Positions 14,634 through 24,333 of a stretch of 34,074 nucleotides of DNA are shown here, piece by piece. A model generated the notes under the pieces. It did no database searches, was not told the origin of the DNA, and saw nothing but the letters and a program-made list of their open reading frames with translations. The DNA comes from Candidatus Nanopelagicales bacterium (GTDB lineage Bacteria > Actinomycetota > Actinomycetes > S36-B12). Positions within the stretch are counted from its first letter, which is position 1. Each line of letters starts with the position of its first letter. The position numbers and the translations under genes are program-made. The stretch is from NCBI GenBank assembly GCA_012103605.1, contig WLWL01000010.1, positions 1 to 34,074 on the forward strand. Direction: 5' to 3'.

Positions 14634-16067
14634 GTGTCCTCTCGCAGTGCAGTACGCCTGGGGTCGACCATCGCGGCCGGAGTGGTCGCGGGGGCCGTCC
14701 TGGTGACAACCGTCGTCGGCGCTGGGGTCACGTCCGTCATGGGCCAACTCGAAGGGAACATCACCGCACTTGATGTCTCCGAGCAGACCGGCACCACGGT
14801 GACCGAGGACCAGTCCATCGTGGTCGACGAGGACACCGGCGAAACGTCGGCTTTCACGATGGTGGTGATGGGCAGCGACTCTCGCAAGGGCAAAGGGAAC
14901 AAGGGCTACGGCAGCTTGAAGAAGTTCGGCGACATCGAGCGCAGCGACACCACCATGATCTTCCACGTCAACGCTGACCGCTCGCAGGCCATCGGCGTCA
15001 GCATCCCCCGAGACACCTTGATGATGCTCCCAGACTGCACCACAGACGGGAAGACCGTCGACGGCTACGAGGGACGCTTCAACGAGGCCATGGTCAATGG
15101 AGGTCCGGGGTGCGTGCTGAAGGCCGTCGAATCGCTCAGCGGGTTGGCGATCGACAACTTCATGGTGGTCGACTTCGCTGCCTTCAAGCGAATCACCGAG
15201 GCGATCGGTGGGGTGGAAATCTGTTTGCAGGACGACGTCAACGATCCCCTGAGCGGACTCACGTTGGACAAGGGCCTGCACACCGTCAACGGTGAACAGG
15301 CTCTCGCGTTCGTTCGAGCACGGAAGACATTGGGAGACGGATCGGATACTTCACGCATCCGGCGTCAACAGGCCTTTCTGTCGTCCATGGCCCGCAAAGT
15401 TCTCAGCAGCGACATCCTTCTCAACCCAGCATCCCTCCTCGGCGTTCTCAACGCCGCCACGGAGTCTTTGACTACCGATCCACAACTGGCGAACATCGAG
15501 AATCTGCGCGATCTGGCCTTGAGCATGAAAGATCTGCGGCCGAAGGACATCACCTTCACCACCATGCCGTGGAAGCAGTCCGGCGATGGAGCCACGGTCG
15601 TTGTGGCCAACAAGCGAGCGGCGCCGCTGTGGAGCGCCATCGCCAACGACACCCCCTGGCCGCCCAAGGCCACCACAGATCAGCCGCTGTTGAAGACGGC
15701 GCCGCAGGATGTTCGGGTCGAGATCATCAACGCCACCGGACAAAAGGGCACCGGGAAGCAAGCGAAAAGGGCTCTCACCAACGAAGGCTTCACCGTGGTG
15801 AACGTCAAGAAGATCAAAGCAGAACGCATCGACGAGTACCCCGCCGAGGACACCATCTGGTTCGACCCCGAGTGGGACGTCTCGGCCAAAACGTTGATCT
15901 ACAGCACCGGCATCGAGAACACCGAAACCGTCGAGGGTCAAGGAGGGACGATGCGCCTGATCATCACCGAGCCTTTGACGTCCGCCCGCTCGGTATCCAT
16001 CGCCGAGGCAACGAAAGACCTCAGCGCCAACGTCAACACCGGCGACGAGAACTTCTGCGCTTCCTAG
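14634..16067 (+). CDS. LytR-CpsA-Psr (LCP) family cell-wall polymer ligase with LytR_C-type C-terminus
   Basis: GSDSRKGKGNKGYG...RSDTTMIFHVNADRSQAIGVSIPRDTLMMLPDC, VNGEQALAFVRARKTLGDGSDTSRIRRQQAFL; C-terminal VRVEIINATGQKGTGKQAKRALTNEGFTV; AGGAAGG RBS. Confidence 0.95.
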   Translation: MSSRSAVRLGSTIAAGVVAGAVLVTTVVGAGVTSVMGQLEGNITALDVSEQTGTTVTEDQSIVVDEDTGETSAFTMVVMGSDSRKGKGNKGYGSLKKFGDIERSDTTMIFHVNADRSQAIGVSIPRDTLMMLPDCTTDGKTVDGYEGRFNEAMVNGGPGCVLKAVESLSGLAIDNFMVVDFAAFKRITEAIGGVEICLQDDVNDPLSGLTLDKGLHTVNGEQALAFVRARKTLGDGSDTSRIRRQQAFLSSMARKVLSSDILLNPASLLGVLNAATESLTTDPQLANIENLRDLALSMKDLRPKDITFTTMPWKQSGDGATVVVANKRAAPLWSAIANDTPWPPKATTDQPLLKTAPQDVRVEIINATGQKGTGKQAKRALTNEGFTVVNVKKIKAERIDEYPAEDTIWFDPEWDVSAKTLIYSTGIENTETVEGQGGTMRLIITEPLTSARSVSIAEATKDLSANVNTGDENFCAS

Positions 16068-16119: not shown

Positions 16120-16983
16120 TCAGACGACGGGGGGCCGGCCAGCCCGCGTGAGACGCCAGGCGGTCCGCCACTTCATCGGACGTCGTTGCGCAGGAGCCGT
16201 GCGCACTCCTTCGGACAGTCCGGAGAACCACACCCGCAAGGCATCGCGGTCGCGGGTGCGGGCCAGCGTCAGGCCGATCCAACTACCCACGTACAACGGC
16301 TCGAGAACCACGGGCAGATTCCGTCGTGCGAGCCACACCCGATTGCGTGCATTCATTCGGTAGAACTCTTCGTGCCGGAGGGGATTGATGACCGGGTGAT
16401 GAACCACAAGGTCGCCGGCGTACCAGCACGTATAGCCGGCATCCCAGACCCTCCACACCAGATCAATTCCTTCGTGTCCGTAGAAGAACTCCGCCGGCCA
16501 GCCACCCGCGGCCTCGAACGCGCCTCGACGAACCGCCGTGGCTCCCTCCCACAAAGTGGTCGCCGGTCCTGATCGAGTCCGGTCACCGACGAACAGGCGG
16601 GGTACCCAACGCCCCGGCGGCTGGACCCCTTCCGGATCCTCGACTCGGGGCTGAACGAGACCGAGTTGTGGATCAGACTCGAACCGTCCCTTCAGGGAGG
16701 CAAGGAAAAATGGGTCGGGAAGGAATGCGTCGTCGTCTAAGAAGAACAGCAGATCGCCCTGGACCTGGTCGACTCCGGCGTTACGGCCCGCCGGTATTCC
16801 CTGGTTGTCCGCGAGCCCCACGGCTTTCACGCCATCGGGAAGCCCCACAGGTTGCCACGAGTTACCCACGACGACGATGTCCACATCGACGTCACGTTGG
16901 CTCAGCAGAGAGCGAAGTGCGCGATCGAGTTCCTCCGGTCGCTGCCCCATGGTCAGCAGCACCACCCCGAAATCCGACATCAC
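16120..16983 (-). CDS. Glycosyltransferase family 2
   Basis: FGVVLLTMGQRPEELDRALRSLLSQRDVDVDIVVVGNSW...GIPAGRNAGVDQVQGDLLFFLDDDAFLPDPFFLASL; GTG/ATG start overlaps upstream gene stop. Confidence 0.92.
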   Translation of the reverse strand: MMSDFGVVLLTMGQRPEELDRALRSLLSQRDVDVDIVVVGNSWQPVGLPDGVKAVGLADNQGIPAGRNAGVDQVQGDLLFFLDDDAFLPDPFFLASLKGRFESDPQLGLVQPRVEDPEGVQPPGRWVPRLFVGDRTRSGPATTLWEGATAVRRGAFEAAGGWPAEFFYGHEGIDLVWRVWDAGYTCWYAGDLVVHHPVINPLRHEEFYRMNARNRVWLARRNLPVVLEPLYVGSWIGLTLARTRDRDALRVWFSGLSEGVRTAPAQRRPMKWRTAWRLTRAGRPPVV

Positions 16984-17792
16984 GCACGCAACTTGCTGGA
17001 GGAAAGAATCGCGACAAGGTGCCCAAGGACGGTGACAACTCCGAGGATGACGAGAGCGGCTACCAAGAATTGAGTGCCCGCGAGGTCACCGGTGAATGCA
17101 TCGACCACTCCCGCGACGAGAGCCAGCAAGGTCAATTCCACGGAGTGGTAGGCCCGGTAGAAGGGGAAGAGTCGTGCGACGGATCTCAGACGCCGAAGCC
17201 CCGACGACTGCGGTGTGCCAACGCCCGTGACGTCGGACAACTTTGGTAGCCCGTTGTAGGCACGCGACACGTGCACCATGTCGTTGAGTGCTTTGTTCCA
17301 CAAAACCAATACCGCGAGCACCGCGCCGATGAAGGCCCACGAGCTTTGCGCCCATCCGGCTTCCGGGAACCCTGCAGCCCGCAATCCGAGAGCGATGGGG
17401 ATCAACCCCTCTGTCACGTAGTGACCCACTCGATCAAGAAAGACACCCGTGGGTGAGGACGTGTTGCGCCAGCGCGCAACCTCACCGTCACAGCAATCCA
17501 GCAGCATCTGCAGCTGACCCAAAATGGCCGCAAGCAGCACACCGGGGAGCCCTGGAATTAGCAGTGCAGCAGCCGTTCCGATGCCGGTGAGGATCATCAA
17601 GAACGTGACACCGTTTGCAGAGATGGGCGTCGTCACGAGTACTCGGGTCACGTACGGCGACACTCGGCGCAGGTAGACATCGGCAACCCAGTGTTCGGAG
17701 TTCGCCCGCATCCGAACCGCATCCGGCTGGCAGACGTCGCGAATCTCACTAATCGTCGGACGAGCCGGACGCTGCACGCGATCCTCGCTCAT
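16980..17792 (-). CDS. CDP-alcohol phosphatidyltransferase-fold membrane protein with variant motif
   Basis: MSEDRVQRPARPTISEIRDVC...; motif DCCDGEVARWRNTSSPTGVFLDRVGHYVTEG (last canonical Asp is His); start trimmed to ATG 17792, overlapping upstream TGA. Confidence 0.88.
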   Translation of the reverse strand: MSEDRVQRPARPTISEIRDVCQPDAVRMRANSEHWVADVYLRRVSPYVTRVLVTTPISANGVTFLMILTGIGTAAALLIPGLPGVLLAAILGQLQMLLDCCDGEVARWRNTSSPTGVFLDRVGHYVTEGLIPIALGLRAAGFPEAGWAQSSWAFIGAVLAVLVLWNKALNDMVHVSRAYNGLPKLSDVTGVGTPQSSGLRRLRSVARLFPFYRAYHSVELTLLALVAGVVDAFTGDLAGTQFLVAALVILGVVTVLGHLVAILSSSKLRA

Positions 17793-19582
17793 CTCTTGCT
17801 CCTCAACCATTGAATCGATGCCACAACACCGAACACGACTCCGAACCACACGAGCAGAACACCACTCAGCGCGTCGATGAGACTAGTCGCAGCGGCGATC
17901 GCCACAATGCCAAGCCGGCCATCCCAGCCCAGACCCATGTTTGTCAGCCACCGCGGCGCCGCCGACCCTTGCAGTGATCGGTACAAGTTGTCGTAGTGGT
18001 GGTACGCCACGAAAAAGAGCAACCAGAAGGTGGCGGCCGACAGGCCGACCGTGCTGACAGCCATGATCCATGCGATGCCGCCTAGTTCCACAGCCCGAAG
18101 GACAGGCGGAACACTCCAGCCGAACCGGCCGTCCAAACGCGGCCGAATGCCCGGAATAAGCCGGGCGAGCCCGGCGGCCACGGGACCTGCATCGAGTTGA
18201 GCCCGCAGGACGTCGACACCTTCTGCTGCAGAGCGTCCTGACCATGTCAGTGAGCGCACGATGCGACCAATCACCACGTACGTCAGCGCAACTCCGCCGG
18301 CAATGAGCAATCCGATGAGCGCCCACCTGGGTCCGGCCACAACGCTCAGGACACTCAACAGCAGCCAGCGCTCGCCGATCGGCATGTGCAGGATCTTCTT
18401 CATCCACCGGATCGCGGATCGTCGGTTCACGCGCGCCGAAACTTGCACCGCCCCGGCGAGGCGCCCTTCACCCTCGGGCAAGGGATCGGACGGATCACGA
18501 ATATCGGCCCGAGGCGCCTGCGCTTCACGAGTCTTTTGAATTCGCGCAAAGTCGTAATCCGACATGTGCCGGGAGGTCTGCAGAACGATCAGCACAATGG
18601 CGACCCACCACACGTCATCACCATTGCGCCCGGCGCCGATGGCAAGTCCTGCATAGACCGCAAACTCCTTCACTCGGTCGGTGGCTGCATCCAGCCATGC
18701 CCCGAGTGAACTAAATCGACCCGTGGCTCGGGCGACTTCGCCGTCGACGCAATCGATCACCAAGCTCAGTTGCAGCAACACCGCGCCCGCGAGCACCCAC
18801 ACCCAAGAACCAGCCGCGAAGGATGCCGCCGCCGCTAAGCCCACGATGAGAGAAACGATGGTGATGGCGTTCGGGGTCCAACCGGCACGAATGGCCATCC
18901 GGGTCAGAGGTTTGGACGCTCGACGGACCACCATGGTCGAGTAGAAGCCATCGTCCACTCGATTAGCCAAGAGTCCTCGGATGCGATCGTCTGATTCGGA
19001 TTCGATCGCACTGGCCACGTCTTCACTTTCGCTTCCCCGTGTCCAGGGGACATCCACGATGTCGGTTGCCCGCACCGTTACTCCGTGCCGGACCAAAGCA
19101 ACGAGCAGAGCATCGAATGCTTGGTCTTGGCCAACAGTCACTTCTCCTGATGCACACGCCCGGCATAGGTCATCAATCGCGGCCGCTGCCTGGGAAGTAT
19201 CCGATGGCGCGATGACGAGTGCACCAACACTGTCGTGACTCGGGAAACGAACATCATGGAAGGACGAGCCCGCACTCACCACCGTGTGATGGCGGACGGT
19301 CATCAATCCCTCAGGGTCTGGCGTCACTAGAGCCGTCGTCGGTGCACGACCATCGTCTGCGATGGGTGCAAGTGCCACGCGCGGCACCATCAAGTCGCCG
19401 GCAACGACCACCGTTCGCGCAGAGCGACGCACGATGCGGGACAACTCCGCAAACTGGGCGATGACCGTGCCCTCTGGTTGCAGCAAGACTGCACCTTCGA
19501 GGCCGAACAGTTGCCCGTTCGCGGCGGGGGTTGGCGCAGGCCCGAGCACAACCGTGACCGCATCCGCGGGAGTCTGGGTCAC
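17789..19582 (-). CDS. Multidomain CDP-alcohol phosphatidyltransferase: N-terminal domain, central canonical CDP-OH-P motif, C-terminal membrane domain (possibly DUF5941)
   Basis: Central motif DCVDGEVARATGRFSSLGAWLDAATDRVKEF; GTG 19582 overlaps the stop of the upstream sulfotransferase gene. Confidence 0.85.
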   Translation of the reverse strand: MTQTPADAVTVVLGPAPTPAANGQLFGLEGAVLLQPEGTVIAQFAELSRIVRRSARTVVVAGDLMVPRVALAPIADDGRAPTTALVTPDPEGLMTVRHHTVVSAGSSFHDVRFPSHDSVGALVIAPSDTSQAAAAIDDLCRACASGEVTVGQDQAFDALLVALVRHGVTVRATDIVDVPWTRGSESEDVASAIESESDDRIRGLLANRVDDGFYSTMVVRRASKPLTRMAIRAGWTPNAITIVSLIVGLAAAASFAAGSWVWVLAGAVLLQLSLVIDCVDGEVARATGRFSSLGAWLDAATDRVKEFAVYAGLAIGAGRNGDDVWWVAIVLIVLQTSRHMSDYDFARIQKTREAQAPRADIRDPSDPLPEGEGRLAGAVQVSARVNRRSAIRWMKKILHMPIGERWLLLSVLSVVAGPRWALIGLLIAGGVALTYVVIGRIVRSLTWSGRSAAEGVDVLRAQLDAGPVAAGLARLIPGIRPRLDGRFGWSVPPVLRAVELGGIAWIMAVSTVGLSAATFWLLFFVAYHHYDNLYRSLQGSAAPRWLTNMGLGWDGRLGIVAIAAATSLIDALSGVLLVWFGVVFGVVASIQWLRSKR

Positions 19583-20736
19583 GAGTCCGACTTGTCGAGC
19601 AGCGAACGGACTCCGTCCTTGCGCACCTGCCGCCACGTGCGCCCGGCCAACTCGCGACTGCTCGGATCCTCACGACTCGCATCGATCACCGCGGCAACTG
19701 CAGCGACCGCCGCATCGATCGGCATCTGGTCTGGTGACGAGGCGAGTTCCGAAGAGGACGCGGCACGCACCCCGAGGGCTTCGAGGTTCCCGAACACCTC
19801 GACCCCGAGCGAAGCGATCGTCTCCACAGATATCGCGCCCTGCACCGCCGCTGCATCCAGAGCCCAATCCGGGGTCACCAGCCGCGGCTCATCGGGGCCG
19901 GGATCTCGTCCCTCGACCATGCGCAGCGCGACACCGCGCCGGACCAAGCGGACGTAGTCCGTCCACTGCATCTGCTTCTTCACGCGCTTGTTGAGTCGCA
20001 CGAGGAGTTCAGCTTCCGCGGCGGTCATCGAGCGGTTACTCGTCAGATCCATCCGCGACACCAAGATCTCGTCCGACACCCCCATCATCTGGGCGAAAGC
20101 TCGAAATTGGGCGCTCCTATCGACGTCCTCGAGAACTAGAACCCTGATATTCGCCGCTCCGACGGCGTTGGCCCATCGTGTGATGACCGCACCGTGATCA
20201 TGGCGACGCCAAAAAGTCGGCGAGATCTTGGATGATCCCGGCTCAGCGAAAACATCCTCAAGCCATTTCTCGTACGGGGTGGTCAGTCCGTACTTCAGGT
20301 ACTGCTGCCATGAACTCGGAAGCAACGCGCCGAGATTTCGCAGCGTGACGACCACGGTCACCTTGTCCGATCCACCGAGAGCTTCGACAGTTTCGATCGC
20401 CTTGTCCTGCGGGGCTTCGCAGAAGAACTCACTGCTAATGACAACTCGGCCATCGTGGTTGGCGGTCCGCCGTACCAGGGTGTCGAAGTGTCGACGATCC
20501 ATGACCGCCCCGCCGCGGCTGTTCCACCCCCACGGTCGGCCCAGCAATGCCAACGCCGCTCGATGTTGTGCTTGCAACTTTCCTGGATATCGAATGCCGT
20601 GCGCCGCTAAGTCCTCTCGGGCATCGGCGAGCGCCGCCTGGATCGCCGTTGTACCGGTCTTGTGGACTCCGATGTGGAGCAACACCGAGTCCTTTGCCAG
20701 CTCCGGCACATCGGGAAGCATCCGCGCCTGCGACAT
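19579..20736 (-). CDS. Sulfotransferase-family protein
   Basis: VLLHIGVHKTGTTAIQAALADAREDLAAHGIRYPG (PAPS 5'-phosphosulfate loop-like KTGTT) and RVVISSEFF (3'-phosphate-binding Ser region). Confidence 0.85.
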   Translation of the reverse strand: MSQARMLPDVPELAKDSVLLHIGVHKTGTTAIQAALADAREDLAAHGIRYPGKLQAQHRAALALLGRPWGWNSRGGAVMDRRHFDTLVRRTANHDGRVVISSEFFCEAPQDKAIETVEALGGSDKVTVVVTLRNLGALLPSSWQQYLKYGLTTPYEKWLEDVFAEPGSSKISPTFWRRHDHGAVITRWANAVGAANIRVLVLEDVDRSAQFRAFAQMMGVSDEILVSRMDLTSNRSMTAAEAELLVRLNKRVKKQMQWTDYVRLVRRGVALRMVEGRDPGPDEPRLVTPDWALDAAAVQGAISVETIASLGVEVFGNLEALGVRAASSSELASSPDQMPIDAAVAAVAAVIDASREDPSSRELAGRTWRQVRKDGVRSLLDKSDS

Positions 20737-20781: not shown

Positions 20782-21582
20782 TCAGGGCGTGCCTTCTGCT
20801 GCCCCATCACCGTCACGAGCCTCTTTGCGTGCAGCACGCATCGCCGCCAGTGCCTCGGGAACCGTGGTGTCCGCCTCGAGACGCCCGTCGGCGATGTACA
20901 GCGCCCGGTCGCAGAACCGCCGAAATTGCTTCGGGCTGTCCGAGGACAACAGGAAGGTCGCACCGTTTTCGCGCAACTTGTCAACATGCGTCCAGCACTG
21001 CTGTCGAAAACTTCTCTCCCCCACCACGAGCGTTTGATCGATGGCATACGCATCAGCATCCACCGACATGGCGATCGACCACGCGAGTTTCTGTCGAACA
21101 GCCGGTGGGGCGGCATTCATGTAGCGGCCGAGCATGTTCGACACCCCCGCCTGTTCGGCGATGCCCGGCAAGGCCTCGTCGATGTGCTCGTGGGTCATAC
21201 CCAGCAGTCCGCCGACGATGAAGATGTTCTGCCGCACGGTGTAGAACCGCTGCAAGGCGCGCGCCACTTCGATCATCGGAACGATCCGGCGCCCTCGACG
21301 CACCTGACCCTCATCTGGTCGGAGCGTTCCGGCGGCGAGTCGAAGAAGAGCCTGCCGGCCCGGCCCCTTCGGCCCGATGATCGCTACCGACTCACCGGGT
21401 TGAATGGAAAACGAGACGTTGCGGAGAACCTCTAACTCCTCGCGTCGCACCTCACCCGCGATACGGCGAAGTCGCTGACGCCGGCCGGCACCCTTGCGGC
21501 GACGGCGGCGAGGCATTCGCATGGTCACGCTGTCGAATTCGACGACGGCATCGAGGTCCGCAGTGATGGCAACTCGCGACAT
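20782..21582 (-). CDS. TagH/Wzt-type ABC transporter ATP-binding-like protein with degenerate catalytic motifs
   Basis: Overall TagH/Wzt layout (RQNIFIVGGLLGMTHEHIDEALPGIAEQAGV..., AIDQTLVVGERSFRQQC) directly after the permease; Walker A reads GPKGPGRQ, Walker B AIDQ, H-loop SSD. Confidence 0.88.
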   Translation of the reverse strand: MSRVAITADLDAVVEFDSVTMRMPRRRRRKGAGRRQRLRRIAGEVRREELEVLRNVSFSIQPGESVAIIGPKGPGRQALLRLAAGTLRPDEGQVRRGRRIVPMIEVARALQRFYTVRQNIFIVGGLLGMTHEHIDEALPGIAEQAGVSNMLGRYMNAAPPAVRQKLAWSIAMSVDADAYAIDQTLVVGERSFRQQCWTHVDKLRENGATFLLSSDSPKQFRRFCDRALYIADGRLEADTTVPEALAAMRAARKEARDGDGAAEGTP

Positions 21583-21583
21583 C

Positions 21584-22357
21584 TCAGACCTCCTTCAAGA
21601 TTCTCGGTTCCAGTTTTCGGAACACCAGAACGCCGGCGACGAAGATAACCAGACACAGTGTCAACGAAATTCCGTATCCCGTCGCTGTCGACGCTTCTTC
21701 TGGCCACCACCCGACTCGATAGAGACCCAGGACGCCGACCAACGGGTTGAACGACGCAATGAACTGAGCGCTTTCAGGGATATTCGAGACCGAGTACAAC
21801 ACCGGCGACAGGTAGAACATGGCTCGCAGCACGATCCGAACCAAGCGTGCAACATCCGGGAAGACCACTGCTGCAGCAGCGATCAGCAGTGACAGTCCGT
21901 ACATCAACAGGAATTGCACAACGATTGCCACCGGGAACATCACGATCCACGGACCGGGAAGGAATCCCGTCAGTGCGATTCCCAGCACAATGACCGGCAG
22001 AGAGAAGATGAATTCGATGAGTGACACGAGCATCGCTCGCACGACCCACAATTGCGTGGGCAACGTACTTATCCGCAGTTGCGTTCCTGTTCGACGCCAG
22101 ATCCTGGTCGACGCACCGATGCCGGTGCTGAACCACCACCACGGCAAGATCGCGACAGACAAGAAGAGCAGGTAGGGCTGGAGACCCAACGCCCGCGCTC
22201 CCAGCAGGACCGAGAAGACCAACCACAAGACCAGCGACATGCCCAGGGGCTCGAGAAGCGTCCACAGGTAGCCCAGGCGAAAGCGCGTGTACTTCTTCTG
22301 GAGGTCCCGTAGGACCAACATTCGGAGCACCTGACGGTGCTCCCAGATTGAACGCAC
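21584..22357 (-). CDS. ABC-2 type polysaccharide/teichoic acid export permease (TagG/Wzm-like)
   Basis: VRSIWEHRQVLRMLVLRDLQKKYTRFRLGYLWTLLEPLGMSLVLWLVFSVLL... six TM pattern; the ORF track extension to 23416 runs antisense to a real gene. Confidence 0.88.
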   Translation of the reverse strand: MRSIWEHRQVLRMLVLRDLQKKYTRFRLGYLWTLLEPLGMSLVLWLVFSVLLGARALGLQPYLLFLSVAILPWWWFSTGIGASTRIWRRTGTQLRISTLPTQLWVVRAMLVSLIEFIFSLPVIVLGIALTGFLPGPWIVMFPVAIVVQFLLMYGLSLLIAAAAVVFPDVARLVRIVLRAMFYLSPVLYSVSNIPESAQFIASFNPLVGVLGLYRVGWWPEEASTATGYGISLTLCLVIFVAGVLVFRKLEPRILKEV

Positions 22358-22363
22358 GGCGTT

Positions 22364-22370
22364 TACGATA
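22364..22370. promoter_or_regulatory. Candidate symmetric shared -10 element for divergent promoters
   Basis: TACGATA: + strand TACGAT, - strand TATCGT; - strand hexamer lies 7 nt from GTG 22357, + strand hexamer 9 nt from GTG 22379. Confidence 0.45.
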
Positions 22371-22378
22371 GGCCAACT

Positions 22379-23647
22379 GTGTCCACCTCCCCGTCCAGCG
22401 ACTCTTGGTTGCGCCGCCAGAGCAAGCGCGCCGCGCGCAGTCTTGCCCGCCGGATGCGGGATTTCGGACAAGTCGAGCCCGCTGGTTTCGACCTCGCGGA
22501 CGTGCCGAGCGCCGATATCGCCCTGTACTTCCCCGACGGTCCGCCCAAGCTCTATCAACTCACGCAGTGGCTGCCCGTCTTCGAAGACAACAACGATGTC
22601 ACGACGATCGTGATCGTTCGTCAGGTGGACGCATTCAACGCCCTTCACGGCACAACACCGCTGCGGATCATCTTGGTTCCCCGGTATGAGGACCTGATGG
22701 CTCTGCTCGACCGGGCGAGCTTCGGAGCCGTGGTCTACGTCAACAACGGCTGGACGAATTTTCAGGCGCTGTCCTTCCAGCGCGCCGTTCACATCCATGT
22801 CAATCACGGAGAGAGCGACAAGATCTGCATGGTGAGCAACCAGGCAAAGGCGTACGACAAAGTCTTCGTCGCGGGGCAAGCAGCGATCGAGCGCCATGAG
22901 GCGGCGCTGGCCTGGTTCGATCAGTCGCACCTGGTTCGTGTCGGACGCCCGCAACTCGACCTCGAGGTAAGCCCGGCTCTCCCCCCGACCGACCGGACCA
23001 CCATCACCTACGCGCCAACGTGGGAGGGTGAGGACGAAGCCAACAACTACTCCTCCGTCGACGTCTACGGCGTGCAAATCATCCAGGCAATGGTGAAGCA
23101 CCCTGGATCGCGGATTGTCTATAAACCCCACCCCCGGGTGGCGGATTCCGACGATCCGGCGATTCGTTCCCAACACCGAGCCATCGTCGCCGCTGTCAAC
23201 CACGCGGCATCCGACGATCCATCCGCAGGCCACTGCGTTCTCGAAGGCGCCGACATGCTCGCGGTCATTCGCAGTACCGACGTATTGATCGCGGATGTTT
23301 CCTCGGTCAGCCTCGACTTTCTCTATCTCAAGCCCGGAGCCCCACTCGTCATCACCGACCGACGCACGGATCGATCCGGCCTTCTCGCCGAGTCGCCCGT
23401 GGCATCGGTATGTCACGTCGTGGATGCAAAATCCATCGATCAGCTGTCCGACGACCTACGTGCTGTCGTCACCTCCAATGGCGATGCCCCGCGCCGCTCC
23501 ATGCGTGACCACTACTTCGACGGCCTAGAACCCGGGGAGAGCACACAGCGATTCTGGGCCGAACTGGACTCGGCAATTCGAGAGCACGATCAGGCCCTGC
23601 AATCATTGAGTCGCATTCGCACCGTGAGCGATGGGACAGCATCATGA
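22379..23647 (+). CDS. CDP-glycerol glycerophosphotransferase-like (TagB/TagF family) protein
   Basis: VHIHVNHGESDKICMVSNQAKAYDKVFVAGQAAIERH, ITYAPTWEGEDEANNYSS, IVYKPHPR, STDVLIADVSSVSLDFLYLKPGAPLVITD. Confidence 0.85.
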   Translation: MSTSPSSDSWLRRQSKRAARSLARRMRDFGQVEPAGFDLADVPSADIALYFPDGPPKLYQLTQWLPVFEDNNDVTTIVIVRQVDAFNALHGTTPLRIILVPRYEDLMALLDRASFGAVVYVNNGWTNFQALSFQRAVHIHVNHGESDKICMVSNQAKAYDKVFVAGQAAIERHEAALAWFDQSHLVRVGRPQLDLEVSPALPPTDRTTITYAPTWEGEDEANNYSSVDVYGVQIIQAMVKHPGSRIVYKPHPRVADSDDPAIRSQHRAIVAAVNHAASDDPSAGHCVLEGADMLAVIRSTDVLIADVSSVSLDFLYLKPGAPLVITDRRTDRSGLLAESPVASVCHVVDAKSIDQLSDDLRAVVTSNGDAPRRSMRDHYFDGLEPGESTQRFWAELDSAIREHDQALQSLSRIRTVSDGTAS

Positions 23648-24333
23648 TTCAGGCGGTGATTCTCGCGGCCGGCATGGGGACGCGCCTGGGACGACCGTTC
23701 CCTAAGCCACTCACCCCTTTGAGTGACGGGCGCACGATCATGGAGCAGCAGATCGACAATCTGCAGCAGGTATTCGGGGCCGATGTACGCATCACCACCG
23801 TGGTCGGCTTCAAACTCGATCTCATTCTCGAAGCCTTTCCCGATGTCACCTACATCTACAACGAGGCCTACGACCAAACGAACACCAATCGCAGCCTGCT
23901 GAAGGCTCTTCGACTCTCGACAGAGGGTGGGGTCCTGTGGATGAACGGAGATGTTGTCTTCGATCCACGAGTACTGGAGAAAGTCAGCGATCTGATGCAA
24001 GAGGACACGTCTTTCATCTGCGTCGACACTGCAGCAGTTGGCGACGAGGAGGTCAAATACACGGTCGATGACGACGGGTACGTCGACGAACTCTCCAAAC
24101 AAGTCGTCAATGCGCGCGGAGAGGCGGTCGGCATCAACTTCGTCAGTGCCAGCGACAAGCCGACCCTCATCGACCGACTGTCCGAGTGCTCCGACGCTGA
24201 CTACTTCGAGCGGGGCATCGAACTCGCTATCAGCCACGATTCCATGCGTGTCATGCCCGTGGATATCGGAGAGTTCTTCGCCGTCGAGGTCGATTTCGAA
24301 GAAGACCTCACCCGCGCCAACAAGTACCTCTAG
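23644..24333 (+). CDS. Nucleotidyltransferase, LicC-like phosphocholine/alditol-phosphate cytidylyltransferase family
   Basis: MIQAVILAAGMGTRLGRPFPKPLTPLSDGRTIMEQQIDNL..., YIYNEAYDQTNTNRSLLKAL, LWMNGDVVFD; ATGA overlap with upstream gene. Confidence 0.85.
   Translation: MIQAVILAAGMGTRLGRPFPKPLTPLSDGRTIMEQQIDNLQQVFGADVRITTVVGFKLDLILEAFPDVTYIYNEAYDQTNTNRSLLKALRLSTEGGVLWMNGDVVFDPRVLEKVSDLMQEDTSFICVDTAAVGDEEVKYTVDDDGYVDELSKQVVNARGEAVGINFVSASDKPTLIDRLSECSDADYFERGIELAISHDSMRVMPVDIGEFFAVEVDFEEDLTRANKYL

Follow-up and report, generated by a model that had tools for sequence, protein, structure and literature searches.

What defines ABC transporters is work driven by ATP. SUR, an ABC-type regulator, puts the ABC architecture to use in gating, not pumping, and SUR and CFTR both still bind ATP; solitary ECF S-components such as BioY are membrane parts derived from ABC systems and believed to function with no ATPase. 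The characterized Wzm–Wzt and TarGH exporters are described as ATP-driven (PMC6379404, PMC7078476). In Wzm–Wzt, the β1–β2 extension forms a cytosolic gate helix, with an electropositive pocket at the permease interface that has been proposed to recruit or bind the UndPP head group, and the Wzm channel is continuous even without nucleotide (PMC6379404); in TarGH, the β1–β2 loop is a gate loop at the tunnel entrance (PMC7078476). Degenerate nucleotide-binding sites are already known and occur widely among ABC exporters, as a rule together with a competent site, and the heterodimeric or full-length exporters with one such site include TAP, TM287/288, MRP1, Pdr5, and CFTR (PMC7756269). What appears to be new here is a conserved exporter pair in which the one NBD encoded no longer has an ATP site; for such a pair we found no precedent in the literature searched, and neither a pseudo-ATPase polysaccharide exporter nor a fully degenerate homomeric ABC exporter was matched in that search, which covered open-licence literature only and is weak evidence of novelty.

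The pseudo-NBD gene and its nucleotide-site motifs

The window, by which we mean the whole 34,074-nucleotide stretch of DNA analyzed, carries on its reverse strand an open reading frame of 266 residues (20782-21582) that an earlier sequence-only reading had taken for an intact, full-length TagH/Wzt-type ABC "ATPase" without catalytic motifs, its gene overlapping that of the permease. The frame is indeed open over its full length, but the two genes do not overlap: the permease stop codon lies at 21586-21584 and the ATG of the pseudo-NBD, preceded by a GGAGG ribosome site, at 21582, with a single spacer base between them. Pfam recognizes ABC_tran at residues 53-150 only (E = 1e-8), and the NCBIfam equivalog cut-offs are missed by far (94.6 of 538, 83.2 of 400 for galactan Wzt, and 75.2 of 320 for TagH, in bits). 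By sequence, the A. aeolicus Wzt NBD and TarH/TagH come closest among solved structures (E 1e-30 to 1e-18), and an AF2 model (pLDDT 84.7) returns Wzt/TagH NBDs as its top Foldseek and VIA-align matches, with Z up to 28.4. Because the sequence-closest structures and the best matches of the model are all Wzt and TagH, the protein is a TagH/Wzt-type NBD with degenerate motifs, in keeping with the original assignment. With the TagH/TarH and Wzt NBDs of TagGH and Wzm–Wzt, it shares the fold, the β1–β2 gate helix or loop, a place beside a Wzm/TagG permease, and syntenic descent from a canonical NBD (see below); it differs from them in lacking the Walker A Lys and Ser and the signature SSGM and in the loss of the Walker B Glu and the H-loop His.

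Motif positions were set by aligning pseudo-NBD sequences to canonical orthologs. The degenerate Walker A (residues 70-77; 21352-21375, reverse strand, as for all motifs here) reads GPKGPGRQ against the canonical GANGxGKS, with Lys76 changed to Arg and Ser77 to Gln. The signature region (residues 158-168; 21079-21111) reads APPAVRQKLAW, with APPAVR against the canonical FSSGMK, the Ser and Gly being lost and the helix after the signature conserved; Walker B (residues 178-183; 21034-21051) reads AYAIDQ, with the catalytic Glu183 changed to Gln. For these three motifs, the alignment bears out the substitutions first read from the letters. The H-loop region (TFLLSSDS, residues 209-216; 20935-20958) is also degenerate, although not by the pairing first proposed, SSD for SHD: the canonical VSHK lies opposite SSDS, so that the His aligns with Asp215 and the change is His to Asp. 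The further departure proposed for the D-loop, GERSF in place of GDxxF, proves minor, and at least 95% of pseudo-NBD sequences keep its Gly188.

When 166 genomes of the order were searched, orthologs were found in 54 genomes of f1, the family of aquatic actinobacteria to which the genome carrying this pseudo-NBD belongs, and 50 distinct sequences of at least 200 residues each were aligned. The Walker A Lys occurs in 0/50 of these sequences versus 10/10 canonical relatives, and position 76 is instead Arg in 39, Thr in six, Val in two, Leu in two, and Gln in one. Ser77 is absent, with Thr at that position in 19/50; the signature SSGM is gone throughout; and the H-loop His is usually Asp. The Walker B Glu and Asp are left in 8/50 and 31/50 sequences, respectively, which makes the earlier statement that every catalytic position is lost slightly too strong for the family as a whole. 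By variability, the Walker A octamer ranks at the 99th percentile of all the octamers in the pseudo clade; in canonical relatives, its mean entropy is 0.34 bits.

These counts bear on whether the pseudo-NBD might still bind or hydrolyze nucleotide at an unusual site, for example, via the Arg at the Walker A Lys position. The prevalence of that Arg, together with the retention of the Walker B Asp in part of the family and of the D-loop Gly188 in nearly all of it, leaves a little room for such a site, but Thr, Val, Leu, or Gln replaces the Arg in the other 11 sequences, the adjacent Ser/Thr is not kept, and the whole P-loop drifts freely, and we regard this reading as very improbable. The drifting P-loop also sets the pseudo-NBD apart from SUR and CFTR, in which ATP binding is kept, whereas the inferred use of ABC architecture for gating is a likeness to SUR.

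Conservation, selection, and descent

The segment after the Q-loop (TVRQN) is strongly conserved in the pseudo-NBDs; conserved too are the helix that follows the signature (R163 in all 50 sequences, W168 in no fewer than 95% of them) and the basic β1–β2 loop (R28, R29, G31, and R40). The pattern is one of selective loss of the ATP site with other surfaces retained. Comparison with three close relatives (dS about 0.18-0.23) gives a dN/dS of 0.06-0.09 for the pseudo-NBD and of 0.015-0.04 for its permease; with two relatives further removed, for which dS is near or at saturation, the values are about 0.10 and 0.04-0.08. Across both sets (0.06-0.10 and 0.015-0.08), constraint is stronger on the permease than on the pseudo-NBD. 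The two genes co-occur in 21/21 genomes and are jointly missing in six (G006, G015, G016, G017, G019, and G029); in G029 (L200) and G017 (L201), both are absent from between the CDP-OH and NTP-transferase genes, and the flanking pathway genes remain.

The source is a metagenome-assembled contig with an estimated contamination of 8.6%, which might suggest a decaying gene or an assembly error; however, the same loss recurs in 54 f1 genomes from many separate assemblies, the frames are open, and dN/dS is low. On these grounds, decay, a pseudogene, and assembly error are rejected, and we leave them next to no weight. Canonical motifs in close relatives, which would have refuted the sequence-only reading, were found in none of the 50 aligned f1 sequences, and its proposal that the fold is kept by selection for a non-hydrolytic role gains support from this absence and from the dN/dS values.

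Canonical NBDs (GANGxGKS, SSGM, VDE, and VSH) are found in two sister families, f6 (genus g35; L138-L144) and f7 (L053/L076 and L054/L077), at the syntenic place of the pseudo-NBD, in the order GT2, CDP-alcohol transferase, NBD, and permease. A second GT2 (q) lies on the other side of the NBD locus in f6 and further off in L076, and the gene arrangement around the canonical NBD of L077 (f7) is looser. In the tree, all 50 pseudo sequences fall on one side of a branch with a support of 100/100; the tool warned that long branches meet at this pseudo/canonical branch, and synteny provides independent support. Given this single branch and the canonical NBD held at the same place by f6 and f7, catalysis was lost in situ, most simply once, before the f1 radiation. 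Among 394 genomes drawn from the class, no pseudo-type NBD appeared outside f1; the matches listed outside f1 scored no more than about 200 bits and were judged on bit score, without one-by-one alignment, and within f1 complete copies score above 310 bits and fragments 169-298.

Some individual records deserve mention. In L143 and L144 (G133 and G134; f6), the canonical NBD match spans one in-frame TAA each. The public record L012 (PBTV01000004.1), entitled "Rubrivirga sp.", contains a copy of this actinobacterial protein at 97% identity, and for that reason its species label looks wrong.

The search for a second ATPase

The sequence-only reading had offered a second, competent NBD as one way to power the permease: an NBD from elsewhere might pair with the pseudo-NBD or replace it part of the time, giving a complex with one active site or one served by a shared multitask ATPase. 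Precedent favors such a complex, in that a degenerate site in the ABC exporters known so far usually operates with one competent site at its side (PMC7756269). The pseudo-NBD resembles the NBDs of those exporters in having lost catalytic residues and in being kept by selection for a structural role, but there the complex retains a second, competent site, whereas the operon of the pseudo-NBD encodes one NBD only.

We sought canonical Wzt-type NBDs with a profile built from canonical NBDs and second permeases by a permease search. At least one canonical Wzt-type NBD is present in the genome of the pseudo-NBD under study (G000) and in about ten relatives (G003, G010, G011, G014, G020, G021, G023, G024, G025, and G028), with a partial one in G032, and these could in principle supply the missing partner; however, they usually adjoin a divergent permease of their own, 24-29% identical to the permease of the pseudo-NBD (in all genomes except G024, which lay outside the permease search). 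Furthermore, six pseudo-bearing genomes of 92-99% completeness (G007, G012, G018, G022, G031, and G033) yielded no canonical Wzt/TagH NBD in the profile search and no second Wzm-type permease, only the permease of the pseudo-NBD being matched. With six genomes at least 92% complete and without either component, a Wzt-type heterodimer is rejected as the general answer, and the absence of a related partner NBD from several genomes is a further difference from the degenerate-site exporters. In G000, two 4790-base contigs (G000:C255 and G000:C256; L003 and L004) carry almost identical canonical Wzt-type NBDs; these are probably strain variants or an assembly duplicate, which fits the contamination estimate.

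One of the six, G018 (99% complete), has 47 PF00005 matches, which were surveyed with a crude hydropathy test for permease-like neighbors on the same strand. No such neighbor was detected by this test for a UgpC-type multitask ATPase, for SufC, for a double NBD about the size of an ABC-F protein, for an NHLM-type half-transporter located where a contig ends, or for three matches that were weak or partial, and the sole membrane neighbor of an FhuC/F420-like NBD of 258 residues lies more than 3 kb off. The lone UgpC-type ATPase and 258-residue NBD speak for a borrowed engine, but both belong to other subfamilies (CUT1 sugar import and FhuC/F420-like, respectively). The signature side of the pseudo-NBD is lost too, so that in a mixed dimer neither composite site would be left unaffected. 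On balance, we consider a complex with a competent NBD unlikely: the part of the earlier proposal that would call on a Wzt/TagH-type partner does not hold in general, although an unrelated, shared NBD energizing the permease cannot be excluded. Separately, G018:C6 (L191:1899-4406) encodes an 836-residue protein with an NBD at residues 590-821, and open frames of 790-1030 residues match the same NBD profile in many f1 genomes; these may be Rv1747-like FHA-ABC exporters, which is only a guess.

The permease, the gate loop, and the predicted glycopolymer locus

The Wzm/TagG-like ABC-2 permease (21584-22375, reverse strand; start codon uncertain) has an ABC2_membrane Pfam match and profile matches to Wzm (6m96_B, E = 3e-17) and TarG (6jbh_C, E = 5e-13); its AF2 model is poor (pLDDT 47.5). 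It retains the LG motif, the TM1 Trp and Pro, and the TM4-5 Asp. According to our own mapping on a profile alignment, the Arg equivalent to TarG R186 is kept and the equivalents of TarG K120 and R175 are lost. The TM2–TM3 coupling-helix region is without the consensus residues of canonical partners, E96, K98, S102, and R107. In the pseudo-NBD, the basic β1–β2 loop (residues 24-48, RRRRRKGAGRRQRLRR; 21439-21513, reverse strand) is the equivalent of the Wzt gate helix and the TarH gate loop. The AF2 model places strands at residues 14-24 and 49-60 and a helix at 34-41, the loop itself having a pLDDT of 56-69, and its net charge averages +8.7 in pseudo-NBDs versus +5.9 in canonical orthologs.

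Around the pair, the window encodes a LytR-CpsA-Psr (LCP) glycopolymer transferase (14634-16067, forward strand), a family 2 glycosyltransferase that is syntenic in the canonical-NBD families too (16120-16983, reverse), a CDP-alcohol phosphotransferase (16980-17849, reverse), a second one fused to DUF5941 (17789-19636, reverse), a CDP-glycerol glycerophosphotransferase-like (TagF-type) protein (22379-23647, forward), and a sugar/alditol-phosphate nucleotidyltransferase-like protein (23644-24333, forward); several glycosyltransferases are also encoded in the locus. The first of the CDP-alcohol transferases is present in 13/13 pseudo-bearing genomes tested and absent in 9/11 genomes without the pair. 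From the LCP transferase, the CDP-alcohol transferases, the TagF-like protein, and the glycosyltransferases, we infer that the likely product is a wall glycopolymer with phosphodiester links. The DUF5941 fusion has a dN/dS of 0.12-0.24, somewhat above most of its neighbors. A 385-residue protein with a sulfotransferase-like start (HIGVHKTGTTAIQAAL; 19579-20736, reverse) has no Pfam or NCBIfam match; its gene adjoins that of the pseudo-NBD in most, not all, relatives and, being missing in L068 and L071-L073, is not tied to the pair.

This setting raises the question of whether the pair transports at all. As a membrane scaffold, the permease and pseudo-NBD would hold or regulate the cytosolic glycosyltransferases and phosphotransferases encoded at the locus, as their constant synteny with CDP-alcohol transferases and glycosyltransferases and the altered coupling-helix consensus of the permease would suggest, along with the loss of the pair in G017 and G029, where the CDP-OH, GT2, and NTP-transferase genes stay. 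However, the permease is under tighter constraint than the pseudo-NBD, and it keeps channel elements (the LG motif, Trp and Pro in TM1, and the Asp of TM4-5) that a pure scaffold would not obviously need; we find a scaffold without transport unlikely, if still possible. The ATP-independent or regulatory-scaffold role that had been the other early suggestion, taken broadly, is favored but not proven.

Since its sole dedicated NBD has lost the ATP site and is yet strongly selected beside the permease, the exporter is probably not self-powered by ATP. Our preferred reading, to which we give about an even chance, is that the pseudo-NBD is a non-hydrolytic gate or docking subunit of a Wzm-like channel that does not power itself with ATP; the mechanism is inferred, and transport has not been shown. 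Its f1-wide form, an ATP-independent polymer channel or flippase with both NBDs dead, kept as a substrate gate, and with membrane potential, synthesis, or ligation as the drive, is a possibility that we advance only tentatively. Under the gate/docking reading, the pseudo-ATPase would have descended in place from the sole NBD of a TagGH/Wzm–Wzt-type wall-glycopolymer exporter, losing the ATP site in the f1 ancestor and keeping its permease-docking surfaces and the basic gate helix or loop that caps the substrate entrance; the sequence pattern is documented here, and the roles of the surfaces are taken from the solved Wzm–Wzt and TarGH structures. A 2+2 complex of permease and pseudo-NBD would be probable, the latter serving as a fixed gate or receptor for a phosphorylated lipid head group, not a motor, coupling to nucleotide-driven NBD closure having been given up. 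A lipid-linked or phospho-glycan substrate would then move through the Wzm-like channel by another drive, for which membrane potential, polymer synthesis inside, and ligation outside by the LCP transferase encoded there are candidates. Against a gate, the changed TM2–TM3 coupling region could mean that the complex no longer transports, and some basic tunnel residues of TarG (the K120 and R175 equivalents) appear, on the alignment, not to be kept in the permease.

Finally, in BioY the ATPase is absent, whereas here a dead copy of the ATPase is kept as an obligate partner. The dead-NBD pair and its canonical sisters at the same locus constitute a natural, conserved experiment, which lets one ask which of the jobs of an NBD (gating, substrate capture, docking, and power) a TagGH-type exporter needs.
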